Source of the DNA: Sulfurovum sp. TSL1
GTDB taxonomy: Bacteria; Campylobacterota; Campylobacteria; Campylobacterales; Sulfurovaceae
Reading direction: 5' to 3'
Length of the DNA: 64,000 nt
NCBI RefSeq assembly: GCF_019972135.1
Contig: NZ_BPFI01000001.1
Location: 1,657,106 to 1,721,105 of the forward strand
This document shows, piece by piece, positions 16,336 to 26,323 of this stretch. The stretch's first letter is position 1. Each line of letters starts with the position of its first letter. Below the pieces are notes generated by a model. That model had not been told where the DNA came from and did no database searches. It saw nothing but the letters and a program-made list of their open reading frames with translations. A program made the position numbers and the translations under genes.

Positions 16336-17403
16336 ATGGTAAAAATGTTCAAGCGTAACAATGGTAAGCTTTACTTGGAATATGAAGCTTACGGCAAGTC
16401 AGTGCAAAAAAGTACACGCCTGCTAGATACGCCAAAAAATAGAACATTGATCAACAAAGAGGTGATCCCCGCACTTGAAGCAAGGATCATATCAGGTGAA
16501 TTTGCAAAAGAGAAGCCTAAAACCTTTTCTTATTACAGTGAGATCTATCTCAAAAGCAAACAGCACTTGAAAGATTATAACAAAAAAAAGCAGCATGTTA
16601 CCGACATAAACATGTTTTTCGGTGAAATGCGCATTGACAAAATTACACGCGGAGATGTCAAAGACTGGGTACAGATGAGACTGGATATGGGCAATTCACC
16701 CAAAACAGTTAAAAACTATTTAGTCAACATTAGAGGTACACTCCACGAAGCAATAGATAGAGAGATCATCACACAAAATGTTGCATTAAACATTAAGATG
16801 CCCTCACATAAACCAAAAGAGATAGAACCTTTTTCTAGTAAAGAGGTTCAACTTCTGTTAAGTGAAGCAGACAAGTTCTTTAAATTATACCTTTCGATTG
16901 GTTTTTATACTGGTATGCGTATGGGTGAGATCATAGGACTACAGTATGATGACTTTGACTTTGAGAACAAGGTCATACATGTGAAACGTTCTATTTACAA
17001 AGGGAAAGTAACTACCCCAAAAACAGATGGAAGCATTAGAGAAATACCGTTGTTTGATGAACTCATGCCGTATCTTAGTAAACAAGAAAACTCAATATGG
17101 CTATTCCAAGGGCTAGATGGTTCACATCTAAATACTTTTGGACAACATAATTATGAGGGTTGGGCTAAACTACTCAGGAAATGTGGTCTAAAATATAGAA
17201 AGCCTGGTAGTACTCGGCATACGTTTATCGTATCGTTGTTGAAGAACAGTGATCTCAGTATACTGGAGATTGCTCAAATGGCCGGACATATGACGACCCA
17301 AATGATCATTAAGCATTACGGGAAGTATATTAAAGGTGAACATCTGAAAGTAGATAGGAAATTAAAACTGTTTACTGACAAAACCGCTGACAATAGGCTG
17401 TAA
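16336..17403 (+). CDS. int: Site-specific tyrosine integrase adjacent to tRNA-Ser
   Basis: 355 aa. An N-terminal Arm-type region (1-55) and a SAM-like core-binding domain (about 60-150, ending GNSPKTVKNYLVNIRGTL) precede the catalytic domain. Catalytic residues: Arg in YTGMRMGE, Lys in TTPKTDGSIRE, Arg in GSTRHTF, His in MAGHM and Tyr in KHYGKY. At the HxxR box the His is replaced by Gly (GSTR). The stop codon is 14 bp from the 3' end of tRNA-Ser, so this integrase most likely inserts the element into that tRNA's 3' end. The element then extends leftward. Confidence 0.93.
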   Translation: MVKMFKRNNGKLYLEYEAYGKSVQKSTRLLDTPKNRTLINKEVIPALEARIISGEFAKEKPKTFSYYSEIYLKSKQHLKDYNKKKQHVTDINMFFGEMRIDKITRGDVKDWVQMRLDMGNSPKTVKNYLVNIRGTLHEAIDREIITQNVALNIKMPSHKPKEIEPFSSKEVQLLLSEADKFFKLYLSIGFYTGMRMGEIIGLQYDDFDFENKVIHVKRSIYKGKVTTPKTDGSIREIPLFDELMPYLSKQENSIWLFQGLDGSHLNTFGQHNYEGWAKLLRKCGLKYRKPGSTRHTFIVSLLKNSDLSILEIAQMAGHMTTQMIIKHYGKYIKGEHLKVDRKLKLFTDKTADNRL

Positions 17404-17416
17404 AGTACGGATTTTA

Positions 17417-17504
17417 TGGCCGGGAGAGGGGGATTCGAACCCCCGGAGGTGTTACCCTCACCGGTTTTCAAGACCGGCACATTCGACCACTCTGACATCT
17501 CCCG
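17417..17504 (-). tRNA. tRNA-Ser(TGA), probable integration target
   Basis: An 88-nt class II tRNA with a 7-bp acceptor stem (CGGGAGA/TCTCCCG), anticodon loop CTTGAAA giving anticodon TGA, a variable arm of serine type and an encoded CCA. The 3' end faces the integrase gene at 16336-17403. The tRNA is intact, as expected when the element restores the 3' end on insertion. Confidence 0.97.
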
Positions 17505-17557
17505 ACAATTTAAAGCATAAAATCTTATCTAAAGATAGATAAATTCTAGTTGATTAA

Positions 17558-17631
17558 TGGAGGAGCCACCCGGATTTGAACCGGGGATAGCAGCTTTGCA
17601 GGCTGCGGCCTTACCGCTTGGCGATGGCTCC
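17558..17631 (-). tRNA. tRNA-Cys(GCA)
   Basis: A 74-nt tRNA. The acceptor is GGAGCCA/TGGCTCC, the anticodon arm GCAGC-CTGCAAA-GCTGC gives GCA, and CCA is encoded. It is third in a four-tRNA operon read Gly-Leu-Cys-Ser. Confidence 0.97.
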
Positions 17632-17648
17632 ATACTCAAATATACAAG

Positions 17649-17735
17649 TGGTACCCGGAGCCGGACTTGAACCGGCACGGTCACAATGACCGGGGGATTT
17701 TAAGTCCCCTGTGTCTACCATTCCACCACCCGGGC
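17649..17735 (-). tRNA. tRNA-Leu(TAA)
   Basis: An 87-nt class II tRNA with anticodon arm GGGGA-CTTAAAA-TCCCC giving TAA, a long variable arm and encoded CCA. The acceptor GCCCGGG pairs with TCCGGGT through two G-U pairs. Confidence 0.97.
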
Positions 17736-17775
17736 ATCATTGGTACCATTTATATATTTAAATATTCGTTTTTCA

Positions 17776-17850
17776 TGGAGCGGGCGAACGGGTTCGAACC
17801 GTCGACCCCAACCTTGGCAAGGTTATGCTCTACCACTGAGCTACGCCCGC
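17776..17850 (-). tRNA. tRNA-Gly(GCC)
   Basis: A 75-nt tRNA with acceptor GCGGGCG/CGCCCGC, anticodon loop TTGCCAA giving GCC and encoded CCA. It is the first gene of the tRNA operon. Confidence 0.97.
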
Positions 17851-21271: not shown

Positions 21272-22954
21272 TCATGCATGACTTTTTAGTTCGCCTACAA
21301 TGTGATCGGCTACCCGAAATGCATTGGCATAAATCGTCCAGGTATAGGCTACAGACCCCCCTGTAGGCATAAAACTCGCATCTGCAACATAGAGGTTCTT
21401 TACATCATGGGATCGGCAATATTTGTTCAGTACGGATGTTTTGGGATCGTTCCCAAAACGGCATCCTCCTGCAACCAGATTCTGCGGGGGCGCAGAAGAG
21501 ATAGCAGAGTATATATTCTTAGCGCCCATCTCTTCGAGTATCCTTTCACACTTCTTTGCAATATAATTTCCTACCTTCAGATCTTGGGGATGTCCTTCCA
21601 CACGCAGTTTGCCTACGGGCATACCGAACTTGTCTTTATGCACAGGATCCAACGAGACAAAACAGTTGTCGTTCGGTAGCCAGTCATTAAAGACTTCAAA
21701 ACGTATACTTTTTTGCTCTGTAAAGCGAGACACCAAACGTTCTCCCAGCTCTTTACCCCATATCAGCTTACCGTCCTTATGATTGTTTTTCCGTGCACGA
21801 GTGATGATATTTTGATGTTCAAACATAAACTCAACGGACCCTCCTTTAAATTTACCATGCCACCAATGGTCTATAAAATACCAATCCAGTATCGATCGGT
21901 TGACAAAAAGTCCTGTTGTCATCAACGCTTCGAAATTGATATCTTTCAAAGAATCCTTATGCAGTTCTCCCTGACCGGAACCTCCCCCGGAAAAAATGAG
22001 GTTCTTACCTACTTCGCCGCTACTGTTCCCCAATCCATTTGGATGATGTGCATTGGCAGAATTGAGTAATAACCTTGCACTCTCATGTGCCTGGGCGGCC
22101 ACGACAAAGATCTTGCCTTTGATCTTTTTCTCTTTGCCTGTCACTGTATCGACGACCACCGCATGACCTACCTCATCTTGTTTGTCTGTATGCAGATACT
22201 TGACATAGGTGTTACTCAGCAAGGTCAGGTTACCTGTAGCCAAAGCGGGTTTGAGAAGTGCCTCTCTCGAACTTCCCTTAGCCCCGGAGCTGCACCCATA
22301 GCTTCCGCAACGGTTGGAGTAATAACAGGCATTACGCCCCGGCTTGTCTTTTGAAAGTACCGCTCTTGGTGTCACGAGCGGCGTAATGTCAAGTGCTTGA
22401 CAACTTTTGTCAAATAGCTTGACCACTGCATTTTCTTTGGTAGGAGGCTGGGTAAAACCTGCCGTACTCCGTGGTGGTTCAAAGGGATGTTTCTCGGCCT
22501 TACCCGAAATGCCTACCAGCTCTTCCGTCAGTGTATAATAGGGTTCCAGATCTTCATAAGAGATGGGCCAATCCGCCACATTGGCTCCTTCTATCTCACC
22601 ATACTTGCTCTTCAGCCTGAAATCATCAGGGTGCATACGGTGCAGCATACCCGACATGAGGTTGGAAGAGCCTCCCACGATGTTCCCGTTCCAAAAACTC
22701 CAACCCGATTCATAGGTAGGCGTCGCTACCCACTCACCGTCTATTTTTTCTTCTATCGTATGGTACTCATCAAATAGGTTAGGCGTGACCAGATCTCTTC
22801 TGCAGTAAGCCAACTCATCTTTGGAGAATTCTTCACGCTTGATGAGCCGCCCTTTCTCTAGCACTGCTACTTTGTACCCTGCTTGACACAGCGTATAGGC
22901 TACAGCTCCGCCGCTTGCTCCTGAGCCGATGATAACAACATCATACATACTCAT
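21272..22954 (-). CDS. GMC-family FAD-dependent oxidoreductase
   Basis: 560 aa. The N-terminal FAD site is VVIIGSGASGGAVAYTL with GKVAVLEKG-like strand 2 (here YKVAVLEKG). A second GMC signature NIVGGSSNLMSGMLHRM follows, and the C-terminal part has VAGGCRFGNDP and the closing PTGGSVAYTWTIYANAFR. Together with the Tat-exported subunit encoded just upstream (ATGA overlap), it resembles the gluconate 2-dehydrogenase type of membrane-linked sugar or alcohol dehydrogenase, in which the small subunit carries the export signal. The substrate cannot be predicted. No cytochrome subunit is adjacent. Confidence 0.88.
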   Translation of the reverse strand: MSMYDVVIIGSGASGGAVAYTLCQAGYKVAVLEKGRLIKREEFSKDELAYCRRDLVTPNLFDEYHTIEEKIDGEWVATPTYESGWSFWNGNIVGGSSNLMSGMLHRMHPDDFRLKSKYGEIEGANVADWPISYEDLEPYYTLTEELVGISGKAEKHPFEPPRSTAGFTQPPTKENAVVKLFDKSCQALDITPLVTPRAVLSKDKPGRNACYYSNRCGSYGCSSGAKGSSREALLKPALATGNLTLLSNTYVKYLHTDKQDEVGHAVVVDTVTGKEKKIKGKIFVVAAQAHESARLLLNSANAHHPNGLGNSSGEVGKNLIFSGGGSGQGELHKDSLKDINFEALMTTGLFVNRSILDWYFIDHWWHGKFKGGSVEFMFEHQNIITRARKNNHKDGKLIWGKELGERLVSRFTEQKSIRFEVFNDWLPNDNCFVSLDPVHKDKFGMPVGKLRVEGHPQDLKVGNYIAKKCERILEEMGAKNIYSAISSAPPQNLVAGGCRFGNDPKTSVLNKYCRSHDVKNLYVADASFMPTGGSVAYTWTIYANAFRVADHIVGELKSHA

Positions 22955-23451
22955 AACTCTATATATCTTGTTGTAGGCCTAGGGAGACCGCCGTACGAAG
23001 AGATCGCCTTCCACCCTGCTTCGTCAATGTTTGAACCATAGATCGGATCGCTAAAGAGTCCTTCCATGGTCAGAGTCATGATATGTGACAACCAATTACG
23101 GCCATAGTGTGTCTCCTCATAGGCACGCAGTGCCTTCTCTTTCTCTGACTCTGTCATAGATACAAATCTTCCTTTTTCACGTTTCTCCAGTTCTTTTGCC
23201 CCTTCAATGACAAAGGCTTTGATATCTTTATCAAAGCTCTGATGCATCATGGTTTCAAACAGGAATTCTGTGACCTTCATCGATCTGGAAGAAGGGAGTT
23301 TGCCGCCTTCAGGGAATAGATGCTCCTGTACAGCAGAGAGTGTCGGTGCTACCCGTTTAAATGCTTTCTCAAAATCACTGACCCCTTTTGCCTGCAGATA
23401 GGAAGAGAGTCCCAGAACGGAACCCAATATGAGAAATTTTCTTCTTTTCAT
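22951..23451 (-). CDS. Gluconate 2-dehydrogenase subunit 3 family protein with Tat signal
   Basis: 166 aa from the ATG at 23451 (MKRRKFLILGSVLGLSSYLQ). The twin-arginine RRKFL plus hydrophobic core fits a Tat signal peptide. The mature part has the family pattern LFPEGGKLPSSRSM, HYGRNWLSHIMTLTMEGLF and GWKAISSYGG. It overlaps the GMC oxidoreductase by ATGA and probably chaperones it to the periplasm by hitch-hiker export. The frame stays open upstream to 23778, but that extension is antisense to the lipoprotein gene at 23582 and is not coding. Confidence 0.85.
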   Translation of the reverse strand: MKRRKFLILGSVLGLSSYLQAKGVSDFEKAFKRVAPTLSAVQEHLFPEGGKLPSSRSMKVTEFLFETMMHQSFDKDIKAFVIEGAKELEKREKGRFVSMTESEKEKALRAYEETHYGRNWLSHIMTLTMEGLFSDPIYGSNIDEAGWKAISSYGGLPRPTTRYIEL

Positions 23452-23581
23452 TGCACACTCTTTACATTGATTTGTTCTTATTATACCTACCATCTGTGCA
23501 CTTTGGGTGCAACAGACTACACATACCTTACACAAGTAGTATATTATACTGCAACTGTCAAAAAAATAGAAGGAGAAAGAT

Positions 23582-23773
23582 ATGCAAAAATTCATTGTGG
23601 GTGCGTTTATAGGATTGGCAATGCTTGCTTTTATCGGCTGTACAAAGAACAATACTGTAGAATCAGATACTAAATGCTCGACAAGCACCAAATGTGAAGG
23701 GACAACGAAATGTTCCGGAGACAGATCAAAAGCTGTGACGACAAAATGTGATGCCAGTAAGAAGTGCGGTTGA
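23582..23773 (+). CDS. Small Cys-rich lipoprotein with TKC repeats
   Basis: 63 aa. A signal peptide ends with the lipobox LAFIGC, and AGAAGGAG precedes the ATG. The 44-residue mature part contains five further Cys, mostly as repeated KC dipeptides (TKCSTSTKCEGTTKCSG, TTKCDASKKCG). It resembles in spirit the short Cys-containing repeat proteins of the bufferin/HvfA group, but no signature is exact. Two more secreted KC-rich proteins lie within 1.4 kb on the same strand (23876 and 24653). Metal binding is inferred only from composition. Confidence 0.75.
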   Translation: MQKFIVGAFIGLAMLAFIGCTKNNTVESDTKCSTSTKCEGTTKCSGDRSKAVTTKCDASKKCG

Positions 23774-23875
23774 TACATATTCTTACGCTCTTTAACTTAA
23801 GTGTTTTCTCATGGTGAGAGATCTTCCATAGAAAATGCACTTATGTTACTTTACACCATTATTTTAAAGGATAGA

Positions 23876-24067
23876 ATGATGATAAAATTACTCTTTGGAG
23901 CACTACTGAGCTTGTCCCTGCTCACCCTTACCGGATGTGGTGAGAAAGAAAACACAAGCACGGAGTCTATGACAAAATGTGAAGCCGGAAAATGTGATAA
24001 TGCGACGCAAAAATCGGAAGTACCTGCACAAAAGTGTAACGCAGATGCAAAAGATGTTGATAACTGA
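23876..24067 (+). CDS. Small Cys-rich lipoprotein
   Basis: 63 aa from ATG 23876, with AAAGGAT upstream. A hydrophobic signal ends in the lipobox LTLTGC. The mature peptide has MTKCEAGKCDN and QKCNADAKD, three Cys in KC context. It is probably a sister of the lipoprotein at 23582. A strong stem-loop follows the stop codon. Confidence 0.75.
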   Translation: MMIKLLFGALLSLSLLTLTGCGEKENTSTESMTKCEAGKCDNATQKSEVPAQKCNADAKDVDN

Positions 24068-24077
24068 TCTCTTCGCC

Positions 24078-24112
24078 CCTGTTCTCTATAAAACAAGAGG
24101 ACAGGCTTCTTT
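24078..24112 (+). terminator. Intrinsic terminator after the second Cys-rich lipoprotein
   Basis: CCTGTTCTCT pairs with AGAGGACAGG (10 bp, one G-U pair) across an 8-nt loop and is followed by CTTCTTTTCC. It ends the lipoprotein transcript and separates it from the DoxX gene. Confidence 0.8.
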
Positions 24113-24199
24113 TCCTCTACCCAATACACACAGCGTGCACATCTTTCATACTATACTTGCACTGTAACAACAAACATATTGTATATAAAGGAGTTACAA

Positions 24200-24637
24200 A
24201 TGCTAAAAGGTATCTATCCTAACGCCAGAAATATATTAAGCAGGGGAAGAGATATTGCCTTACTGTTGGCCAGACTTACTATCGCCTATGGATTTTACAA
24301 CCCAGCGATGCAAAAGTGGTCAGACATCTCAAGTGTTGGCGAGTGGTTTGGTACCCTGGGCATCCCCCTCCCTGCCTTGAATGCCTATCTGGCAGCCAGT
24401 ACGGAACTGTTGGGAGTTGTATTATTAACATTGGGACTCTTTACAAGACTTATCTCATTGCCCCTTATAGTGATGATGGTCGTTGCCATTGTTACCGTAC
24501 ATATAGGCCATGGCTTTTCTGCAGGAGATAATGGGTTTGAAATTCCTTTATATTACATACTGTTTTTAGCCCTATTTGCTTCATTTGGAGCCGGAAAATT
24601 TAGCTTGGACCACCTTCTTTTTGGTGAAGAGCAATAA
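24200..24637 (+). CDS. DoxX family membrane protein
   Basis: 145 aa from the ATG at 24200, with AAAGGAG before it; an upstream TTG at 24179 is not needed. Four membrane helices with the DoxX pattern: ALLLARLTIAYGFYNPAMQK, then SVGEWFGTLGIPLPALNAYL, ASTELLGVVLLTLGLFTRL and a final helix after HGFSAGDNGFE. DoxX proteins occur as the membrane partner (HvfD-like) in bufferin operons and in thiosulfate or redox contexts. The gene is followed 15 bp later by a Cys-rich secreted protein, so the pair is co-transcribed. Confidence 0.88.
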   Translation: MLKGIYPNARNILSRGRDIALLLARLTIAYGFYNPAMQKWSDISSVGEWFGTLGIPLPALNAYLAASTELLGVVLLTLGLFTRLISLPLIVMMVVAIVTVHIGHGFSAGDNGFEIPLYYILFLALFASFGAGKFSLDHLLFGEEQ

Positions 24638-24652
24638 CAGAAAGGATGAACC

Positions 24653-24964
24653 ATGAAAACAACACTTCAATTAGGATTATTATATATCGGTGCTTTAGCT
24701 TTATCACTTACTTTGGCAACGGCTGAGGGGAAATACGAAGGTTCCCAACAAGGTATGATGAATAACGATGCTAAATGCGGAGATGCTCAAAAAGAGATGA
24801 AGGAAAAGCGCGAGACCTATCGAAAAGAGATGAAAGAAAAGAACGGAAAATGCGGGGAGTCACAAAAGGACATGATGGATAATGACGGAAAATGTAATGC
24901 TTCTATGAAACCAAAGCCTGCACCCACTAAAGGTAAATGCGGACAAGGTAAATGTGGGGACTAA
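24653..24964 (+). CDS. Secreted low-complexity KCG-repeat protein, bufferin/HvfA-like precursor candidate
   Basis: 103 aa. A signal peptide probably cleaves at LATA|EGKYEG. The mature region is Lys/Glu/Met/Gly-rich with Cys in a regular context: AKCGDAQ, GKCGESQ, GKCNAS and a C-terminal GKCGQGKCGD. EGKCG/GKCG motifs mark HvfA/BufA-type precursors, whose Cys are turned into oxazolone-thioamide by a DUF692 (MNIO) enzyme to chelate copper. A DoxX gene lies just upstream, as in hvf operons. No DUF692 or DUF2063 gene is in this window, so modification would have to be done in trans, or the protein is unmodified. Confidence 0.7.
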   Translation: MKTTLQLGLLYIGALALSLTLATAEGKYEGSQQGMMNNDAKCGDAQKEMKEKRETYRKEMKEKNGKCGESQKDMMDNDGKCNASMKPKPAPTKGKCGQGKCGD

Positions 24965-25073: not shown

Positions 25074-25583
25074 ATGCGATACTTACTGATCATGCTTACA
25101 CTCTTATTGTCTCTTACAGGATGTGAAGACAAGGAACAGCTTACCAAGAAACAGGCTGCACATGATGCCCAGATAGCACAACAGGCCAGAGCGGAACTGC
25201 TTGCTGAACTTGAGGCGGAAAAGCTGCGGAAACAGAAAGAGGCGCAAGAGAAAAATGAAACCAAGCTCACCAAGATGGGTGTCCGCATGGATGATGGCAT
25301 TATTACCATCGATACAAATAAAACAAAAGAATTTTTCAGAGACTTCAATCAAAAGATGTCTGTACAAATGAAAAAGATCTCTGATGACCTCGAAAAAGGC
25401 ATCATTGAGACCAAAGAAGCTGGAGTAGAAATGAATGAACAATATATTCATATCGATCTCAACCAAACCCAAAACCTGCTGCAGGAATGGGGAAAGAAAA
25501 TGCAAATTTTTGTACAAGAGTTTGATGAAATGGCACGTACACTGGAAACTAATGCATCAAATACTACAGATAAAGGAATGTAA
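25074..25583 (+). CDS. Coiled-coil lipoprotein, unknown function
   Basis: 169 aa with AAAAGGA before the ATG. The signal peptide ends at the lipobox LSLTGC. A heptad-rich helix follows (about 20-65, KKQAAHDAQIAQQARAELL and on), then two internally similar strands: GVRMDDGIITIDTNKTKEFF and GVEMNEQYIHIDLNQTQNLL, each followed by a helix. This points to a duplicated beta-helix unit. The stop overlaps the next start (TAATG), so it is coupled to the FTR-rhodanese gene. Confidence 0.8.
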   Translation: MRYLLIMLTLLLSLTGCEDKEQLTKKQAAHDAQIAQQARAELLAELEAEKLRKQKEAQEKNETKLTKMGVRMDDGIITIDTNKTKEFFRDFNQKMSVQMKKISDDLEKGIIETKEAGVEMNEQYIHIDLNQTQNLLQEWGKKMQIFVQEFDEMARTLETNASNTTDKGM

Positions 25584-26323
25584 TGCAACCGATAGATATG
25601 AACTCAGATGAATTTCAAGCCGAACTGGAGAAGACTTGGACCTTTGTAAAGAAGGTAAACAAGCAGTTCGGGTTTGTTCCCAACCCCAATGAAGAGGTCA
25701 ATGAAGGTGTGGCGATGGGGCTTGCACGCAATAAACTCATTTATGGTAAGAGATTTTGTCCATGTTTTATGGTGATAGGAGAGACAAAAGAGGAACAAAA
25801 AGCTGCAGACAACCGTATCTGTCCATGTACACCTGCATTGGAAAAAGAGATCCCTGAAGACGGTACCTGTCACTGTGGGATCTTCTGTACACCGGAGTAC
25901 GCCCAGGCACAAGCGCAACACGACGCCATAGAGGAAGTCGTGCATCAACACTCTGGGGGCTTAACGAAAGAACAGGCAGAGCTTCTTCTGAAAGAAGAAC
26001 AGCTTGACGGAGATGAACTTGAAGCGCTCATAGAAGCAAAAAAACTGGGGATGATCGATTTTACCCTTGTGGACACAAGAGAATACATGGAGTACCAAAT
26101 GGAACATATCGTAGGGACAGACAAACTTGTACCTACCTCACAGTTCTATGCAAAAATAGAAGAAGAACTCGCAGGGTTCAAGCAAAAACCTATCATCGTT
26201 TACTGTCACTCCGGAAGCAGAAGCTACCAGGTACAACACGCTATGAAAGGCTTGGGGTTCGAACACGTATGCAACCTCAGACCAGGGATCATCGGCTTTT
26301 CCGGTCAAACCCAAAGAGGATAA
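25583..26323 (+). CDS. Ferredoxin-thioredoxin reductase catalytic (beta) domain fused to rhodanese
   Basis: 246 aa. The N-terminal 105 residues hold the full FTR-beta pattern: CPC at 59-61, CPC at 80-82 and CHC at 96-98, with Cys102 near by. These Cys bind a [4Fe-4S] cluster and form the redox-active disulfide. A 40-residue linker leads to a rhodanese domain (about 140-246) with active-site Cys208 in YCHSGSRS. It is a cytosolic enzyme without a signal peptide. The fusion couples disulfide reduction to sulfane-sulfur handling, which fits a sulfur-oxidising host. Its partner may be a thioredoxin-like protein elsewhere. Confidence 0.9.
   Translation: MQPIDMNSDEFQAELEKTWTFVKKVNKQFGFVPNPNEEVNEGVAMGLARNKLIYGKRFCPCFMVIGETKEEQKAADNRICPCTPALEKEIPEDGTCHCGIFCTPEYAQAQAQHDAIEEVVHQHSGGLTKEQAELLLKEEQLDGDELEALIEAKKLGMIDFTLVDTREYMEYQMEHIVGTDKLVPTSQFYAKIEEELAGFKQKPIIVYCHSGSRSYQVQHAMKGLGFEHVCNLRPGIIGFSGQTQRG

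Follow-up and report, generated by a model that had tools for sequence, protein, structure and literature searches.

Small exported peptides rich in Lys-Cys (KC) pairs, the membrane protein HvfX, and a GMC-family flavoprotein with its Gluconate_2-dh3 partner (G2DH3) probably make up a single system. The genes were studied in a Sulfurovum, a marine sulfur bacterium, in a window of 64 kb (the whole stretch of DNA that was analysed). With a probability of roughly 0.42, we read them as a copper-buffering set, in part periplasmic and in part anchored in the membrane, that would work without an MNIO enzyme, the flavoprotein pair replacing it. MNIO is the sole maker of such copper peptides described in the literature searched. 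The initial annotation had spoken of an orphan locus. Instead, the set recurs throughout the clade of Sulfurovum-like bacteria, together with its GMC/Gluconate_2-dh3 partner. The features are as follows.

21272..22954, minus strand: GMC-family flavoprotein (PF05199/PF00732), kin of FAD-glucose and fructose dehydrogenases
22951..23451, minus strand: Gluconate_2-dh3 small subunit (PF13618, 45.5 bits), twin-arginine start MKRRKFLILG
23493..23550, plus strand: operator/promoter-like element, TGTGYACT-N3-RGTGCAA, TACACA, TTACACA, then a terminal TATTATACT
23582..23773, plus strand: KC lipoprotein 1, 63 aa, lipobox FIGC, five more Cys, each in KC
23876..24067, plus strand: KC lipoprotein 2, 63 aa, lipobox LTGC, three more Cys, each in KC
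24200..24637, plus strand: HvfX (DoxX family) membrane protein, 145 aa (PF07681, 70.7 bits; NF050144, 121 bits)
24653..24964, plus strand: secreted KCG protein, HvfA-like, 103 aa, Sec-type signal-like N-terminus, five Cys
25074..25583, plus strand: lipoprotein, a coiled coil by eye, a conserved neighbour in Sulfurovum-like loci only
25583..26323, plus strand: ferredoxin-thioredoxin reductase beta/rhodanese fusion (PF02943, 127.6 bits; PF00581, 51.5 bits)

The three small peptide genes are under purifying selection and are no chance open reading frames. Against relatives, dN/dS is 0.15-0.31 for the gene at 23582, 0.18-0.30 for that at 23876, and 0.09-0.31 for that at 24653 where dS is finite; two of the relatives (L018 and L189) give identical figures and are probably one strain. 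With the open reading frames read, this upholds the earlier description of 23582-24964, in which two lipoproteins rich in KC accompany a DoxX protein and a secreted KCG protein, and the lipoboxes do the same for its lipid-anchored members. The KC-HvfX-KCG gene order is maintained across many Sulfurovum-like loci, and synteny makes the reductase/rhodanese fusion a conserved neighbour 3' of the KC cluster in Sulfurovum-like loci only.

The Gluconate_2-dh3/GMC unit (21272-23451, minus strand) diverges from the KC genes and starts 131 bases upstream of lipoprotein 1. The operator-like element lies between the two units, and its TGTG/CACA dyad recurs in relatives, where 38 of the 56 intergenic G2DH3-KC regions contain it. 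This points to joint control of both divergent units by a shared element. The element has no strong match at the CusA-linked lipoprotein stretches of the same genome (L259, L260) or at its second HvfX (L034).

The proposed likeness to HvfA and HvfX is confirmed. The protein at 24200..24637 exceeds the curated cut-off of 80 bits for the HvfX family (NF050144). The protein at 24653..24964 combines a signal-like N-terminus with repeated KCG, both traits of HvfA/EGKCG precursors. It contains GKCG three times and AKCG once and ends in KGKCGQGKCGD, a C-terminal motif retained in relatives. Its scores of 14.7 and 14.1 bits fall below the HvfA models (NF050188, cut-off 95; NF050137, cut-off 19.5), and the precursor of a relative (L037 8563-8745) passes the HvfA-domain model NF050137 with 30.1 bits.

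HvfX itself is called uncharacterised in the available part of PMC13419390. No PDB sequence matches the HvfX profile. For an AlphaFold model (pLDDT 86.9), Foldseek retrieved no PDB match of use; the best was NACHO/TMEM35A (E 0.44, probability 0.98), a human receptor assembly factor.

Several known systems resemble this one. The oxazolin/hvf operon of Haemophilus influenzae (HvfA, the MNIO HvfB, HvfC, HvfX) and the related fontiphorin/captophorin clusters likewise combine a Sec-exported KCG/GKCG precursor with HvfX. Hvf-type members with lipoprotein signals are also in print, since the available part of PMC12636315 describes NedA, a lipid-anchored EGKCG peptide. Unlike these systems, the genome studied here has neither MNIO nor PME1/HvfC, a GMC/Gluconate_2-dh3 pair adjoins, the KC motif is relaxed after Cys, and tags are dispersed on copper proteins. 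The bufferins Buf1/Buf2 (DUF2282, Buf_6/12Cys) share exported Cys peptides, DoxX linkage, and a copper role, but their Cys pattern differs and they require the MNIO that is absent here.

The DUF692 enzyme and the PME1/DUF2063 partner of an MNIO-dependent RiPP cluster are both missing from this genome. The genome-wide search proposed in the initial annotation found neither: in an assembly that is 99.94% complete, profile searches gave zero matches for DUF692/MNIO (PF05114) and for DUF2063/PME1 (PF09836). A clade-specific profile of 14 Campylobacterota MNIO proteins had no match at E <= 1 in any of 47 genomes, which are the carriers of HvfX or GMC without MNIO, this genome included, plus G398. 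The PF05114 search does detect MNIO in other genomes. Within the family, PF05114 and PF09836 match the same 3 of 150 genomes, and HvfX is above its cut-off in 60 of the 150. The earlier statement that the neighbourhood has no maturation enzyme was right for DUF692 and DUF2063, but the divergent GMC/Gluconate_2-dh3 pair had gone unconnected. According to the available part of PMC12452194, only 67 of 2583 Buf_EGKCG genomes are without MNIO.

Evidence for coupling is provided by co-occurrence across the class. Among 298 sampled genomes, HvfX is above its cut-off in 42, MNIO is found in 13 (leaving out G304 and G332, which are below the family cut-off), and a close GMC ortholog, about half or more identical to the GMC protein of the window, is found in 45 (leaving out 20 genomes with a sole match at 29-31% identity). 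The ortholog is present in 31 of 33 genomes with HvfX and no MNIO versus 1 of 9 with both HvfX and MNIO (Fisher 3e-6), counts that are not independent because the genomes are related. At the level of genera, the corresponding figures are 9/10 and 1/8 (p 0.003). Genomes with neither HvfX nor MNIO carry the ortholog in 13 of 252 cases. There are exceptions: G002 and G023 have HvfX with neither enzyme. HvfX and the KC peptides pair with MNIO or with GMC, and rarely with both or neither, as might be expected of alternative enzymes for one job.

The GMC protein has the GMC fold with an FAD-binding N-terminus that defines this dehydrogenase family. Its nearest solved relatives are an FAD-glucose dehydrogenase (6a2u) and a fructose dehydrogenase (7w2j). 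Foldseek confirmed the GMC fold of its AlphaFold model (pTM 0.84) at 2.6e-38; the model is silent on the key residues because the Cys motif (198-223) and the active-site loop (526-535) are of low confidence. Like the large subunits of 6a2u and 7w2j, and like Cj0415, it has the GMC fold, three aligned cluster cysteines, and a Tat-type small subunit. These cysteines (C209/C215/C220), which we take to be [3Fe-4S] ligands, are retained in the window, are present in 123/123 rows, and were aligned with 6a2u by phmmer.

Unlike those enzymes, the protein has lost its presumed catalytic residues, the His and Asn at the sites aligned with FDH. The window has Leu at the catalytic-His site and Ala at the second. 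At the sites of FDH H1147A (8k6j) and N1190A (8xcn), Leu and Pro/Ala/Thr (one X) are found in 118/118 clade rows, which are partly redundant and among which the named-scan rows (the best 80 of 525 relatives) came via a Leu-containing pattern; the GMC loci examined first were obtained by protein searches, which do not carry this bias. Distant GADH-type homologues (Campylobacter) retain both His and Asn in 5 of 5 cases. With the catalytic His lost, it may be that the GMC protein oxidises no substrate at all. A further difference from 6a2u, 7w2j, and Cj0415 is that no cytochrome c subunit gene was seen in the mapped neighbourhoods of the GMC pair. Given the lost residues and the contrast with the GADH-type rows, the pair is unlikely to serve as a gluconate dehydrogenase.

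The Gluconate_2-dh3 protein carries the twin-arginine motif RRxF[LIV] in 127 of 146 homologue rows, and it is proposed as a putative Tat carrier of the GMC protein. The mechanism would then run as follows. The two KC lipoproteins and the soluble KCG protein would exit the cell by Sec. HvfX would sit in the inner membrane, likely as a membrane partner. The flavin and iron-sulfur GMC protein would be exported through Tat, carried by its Gluconate_2-dh3 partner. Whereas MNIO is a cytoplasmic enzyme that works through a leader, the exported GMC protein would replace cytoplasmic MNIO/PME1 and act on Lys-Cys(-Gly) sites after export, probably by oxidising them. The coupling is well supported; from the sequences we infer the chemistry, and likewise copper as the metal, Tat export, the action of GMC on KC sites, its product, and the role of HvfX. 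That GMC is the enzyme modifying the KC sites is possible, at somewhat under even odds. In the literature, a search of partial coverage found nothing linking GMC to KC peptides.

If true, a swap from MNIO to an exported flavoprotein separates the peptide from its enzyme, provides a function for a GMC clade whose active site is emptied, and offers a handle on HvfX. Thiooxazoles should not be presumed on KC peptides merely near DoxX.

A close rival, which we also regard as a tentative possibility, is that the KC peptides and tags are plain thiol Cu(I) sites that are never modified, with GMC and HvfX keeping their redox state or serving copper in some other way. The motif itself can be read in its favour. 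Gly follows Cys in 99/109 cases beside MNIO, 185/472 in Sulfurovum-type loci, and 168/233 in other GMC loci, and Lys precedes Cys in 75/109, 455/472, and 175/233 respectively; the peptides were found by a detector independent of KC, some sequences within a set are related to each other, and in the other-GMC set 10 of the 44 peptides belong to another Cys-rich kind. By these counts, the residue that is fixed in Sulfurovum is no longer the Gly that follows Cys but the Lys that precedes it. A relaxed residue after Cys would suit a plain thiol site, as would a GMC clade without canonical catalytic residues. Yet the KC peptides of GMC genomes in families f3 and f10 are nearly as strict in keeping KCG as the precursors of MNIO are.

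The distribution of the motif also speaks against plain thiols, which would be expected also where both enzymes are lacking. We searched 160 genomes of the class for the DNA motif that encodes KCGxxKCG. Of the 239 genomes without HvfX, MNIO, or GMC, 101 were taken (21 from families of positives and 80 from a random list in order) and 138 were left out. The motif is present in 29/31 genomes with HvfX and GMC but no MNIO (G268 and G341 have HvfX and GMC without it), 7/9 with HvfX and MNIO, 0/2 with HvfX only, 2/13 with GMC only, 2/4 with MNIO only, and 2/101 without all three. One of the last two matches has an in-frame stop, so that only 1/101 is real: a KC peptide in G398 (L265), a genome without HvfX, MNIO, or a close GMC match. 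An off-frame control motif, with six free bases instead of seven, matched 4 of 298 genomes.

Tags on folded copper proteins are the third point in favour of plain thiols, and they also bear on the flavoprotein reading. In the nine motif-bearing MNIO genomes, all 19 matches lie, by position, in the precursor adjoining MNIO. Dispersed tags, sorted by hand and defined as lying on a different contig from HvfX and GMC or more than 10 kb away from them, occur in 14/31 motif-bearing GMC genomes versus 0/9 MNIO genomes (Fisher p 0.016). Ten tagged lipoproteins, in nine genomes, lie directly 3' of a gene for an RND pump. The genome studied here has two of the ten, and its two pumps are CusA/CzcA (TIGR00914, 1016 and 990 bits); the other eight pumps are named by sequence likeness only. 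Tagged cytochromes c lie beside a permease, which in L263 is an SO_0444 Cu/Zn efflux protein (NF033936, 397 bits). A tagged PCu(A)C protein (PF04314, 138 bits) has a C-terminal MKCGSGKCGK and lies beside SCO1 (L266). A tagged NosL-like protein (L264) scores 22.1, just below its cut-off of 24, and tagged Spy-like and cbb3-linked membrane proteins were named by eye. In L281 and L283 a membrane protein with six helices (by eye) lies beside CcoN and has a C-terminal MKCGPAMKCAPGKCGMGKCGSKN tail, a hint that the assembly of cbb3 oxidase is tagged as well. One further match (G024 C1:1713359) is due to chance, as no open reading frame carries the motif there.

Under the flavoprotein reading, further exported copper proteins could acquire KCG tags because GMC would need no leader peptide, and the dispersal of the tags would be explained because an enzyme exported through Tat would act on any exported protein. 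The reading would thus, if true, account for a short copper tag spreading over unrelated copper proteins. The earlier link to copper now shows through the copper proteins that carry tags at other sites of these genomes; it does not come from the window itself. A bolder version is unlikely as a whole: that the GMC protein, without sugar-oxidising residues, would be a novel type of extracytoplasmic peptide-modifying enzyme acting on leader-free Lys-Cys(-Gly) tags, and would have displaced MNIO several times in Campylobacterota, so letting tags graft onto exporter partners, chaperones, and cytochromes.

It is improbable that the pair is an unrelated periplasmic dehydrogenase whose co-occurrence with the KC genes comes from shared ancestry and habitat. 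Such an origin would fit the relatedness of the sampled genomes, and Cj0415 of C. jejuni is a gluconate dehydrogenase according to the available part of PMC3156733. The GADH-type rows, however, retain the His and Asn that the GMC clade has lost. GMC and HvfX are less than 3 kb apart in 23/31 genomes, on separate contigs in 3, and far apart in 5. The pair is divergent in family f1 (that of the window) and in f10, and follows co-directionally as KC-HvfX-G2DH3-GMC in f2, f3, f6, and f7. Because gene order differs among families, the association is not one frozen synteny. Within f10, some genomes have KC-MNIO-PME1-HvfX-RR-HK, and others have GMC-G2DH3 divergent from KC-HvfX-RR-HK; in genus g39, MNIO is found in G221 and G271 and GMC in G341. 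The HvfX tree has at least 4 changes between linked MNIO and GMC labels, but is weakly resolved, with 20/45 inner branches open. The divergent operator-like element common to Sulfurovum-type loci also argues against an unrelated enzyme.

Stand-alone pairs speak for an unrelated enzyme. A scan of named genomes with the GMC alignment gave, among the best 80 of 525 relatives, mostly Sulfurovum, with records labelled Sulfurimonas or Sulfurospirillum, a few gammaproteobacteria, and one Bacteroidetes MAG. KC peptides lie beside the pair at many of these 80 loci, and at others the pair has no such company. Arcobacter-like and gammaproteobacterial genomes have the pair with no KC neighbour. Eleven of the 13 genomes with GMC but without HvfX and MNIO also are without KCGxxKCG; in four of these (G179, G184, G192, G349), other KC peptides adjoin the pair.

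Other lipoproteins are found near pairs of this clade. Outside Campylobacterota, the Bacteroidetes MAG (L223) has a KCGEGKCGEGKCG lipoprotein with KCGEGKCGEGKCGEGKCGEGKCGEG repeats, a point in favour of the flavoprotein reading. In L194, L196, L198, and L204, short lipoproteins of a different kind (SSKCGGTCAPSYPTCVKPTCGCK) occur close to the same GMC pair and are possibly a further substrate class.

The genome has a second HvfX, which shares an operon with a glutamate-synthase-like FMN protein anchored in the membrane (PF01645, 190 bits):

C1:626985-629091 of the same genome (L034 5983-8185): second HvfX and glutamate-synthase-like protein (PF01645)

This pairing repeats across the family. Such linkage suggests a partner other than the GMC pair and so weighs against the flavoprotein reading, but there is only a slim chance that the FMN protein is the replacement enzyme. 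Its homologues of at least 52% identity lie mostly directly 3' of HvfX, and genus g8 (L037) has the order HvfA-HvfX-HvfX-GltS with a precursor above the HvfA-domain cut-off. It is absent, however, from many KC-HvfX-G2DH3-GMC clusters (L084, L088, L089, L090, L092, L105), and it would be no replacement for MNIO because it is also found once inside a complete MNIO cluster (L120).

Modification in trans by a DUF692/MNIO enzyme elsewhere in the genome, suggested in the initial annotation and raised for unlinked precursors in other genomes in the available part of PMC12452194, is ruled out for practical purposes by the empty PF05114, PF09836, and clade MNIO profile searches of this nearly complete assembly.

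An Rfam search of the 64-kb window found tRNAs alone. An open reading frame at 16336-17850, tyrosine-recombinase-like by eye, ends beside four tRNA genes (Ser, Cys, Leu, Gly), and this region is a possible integrated element.
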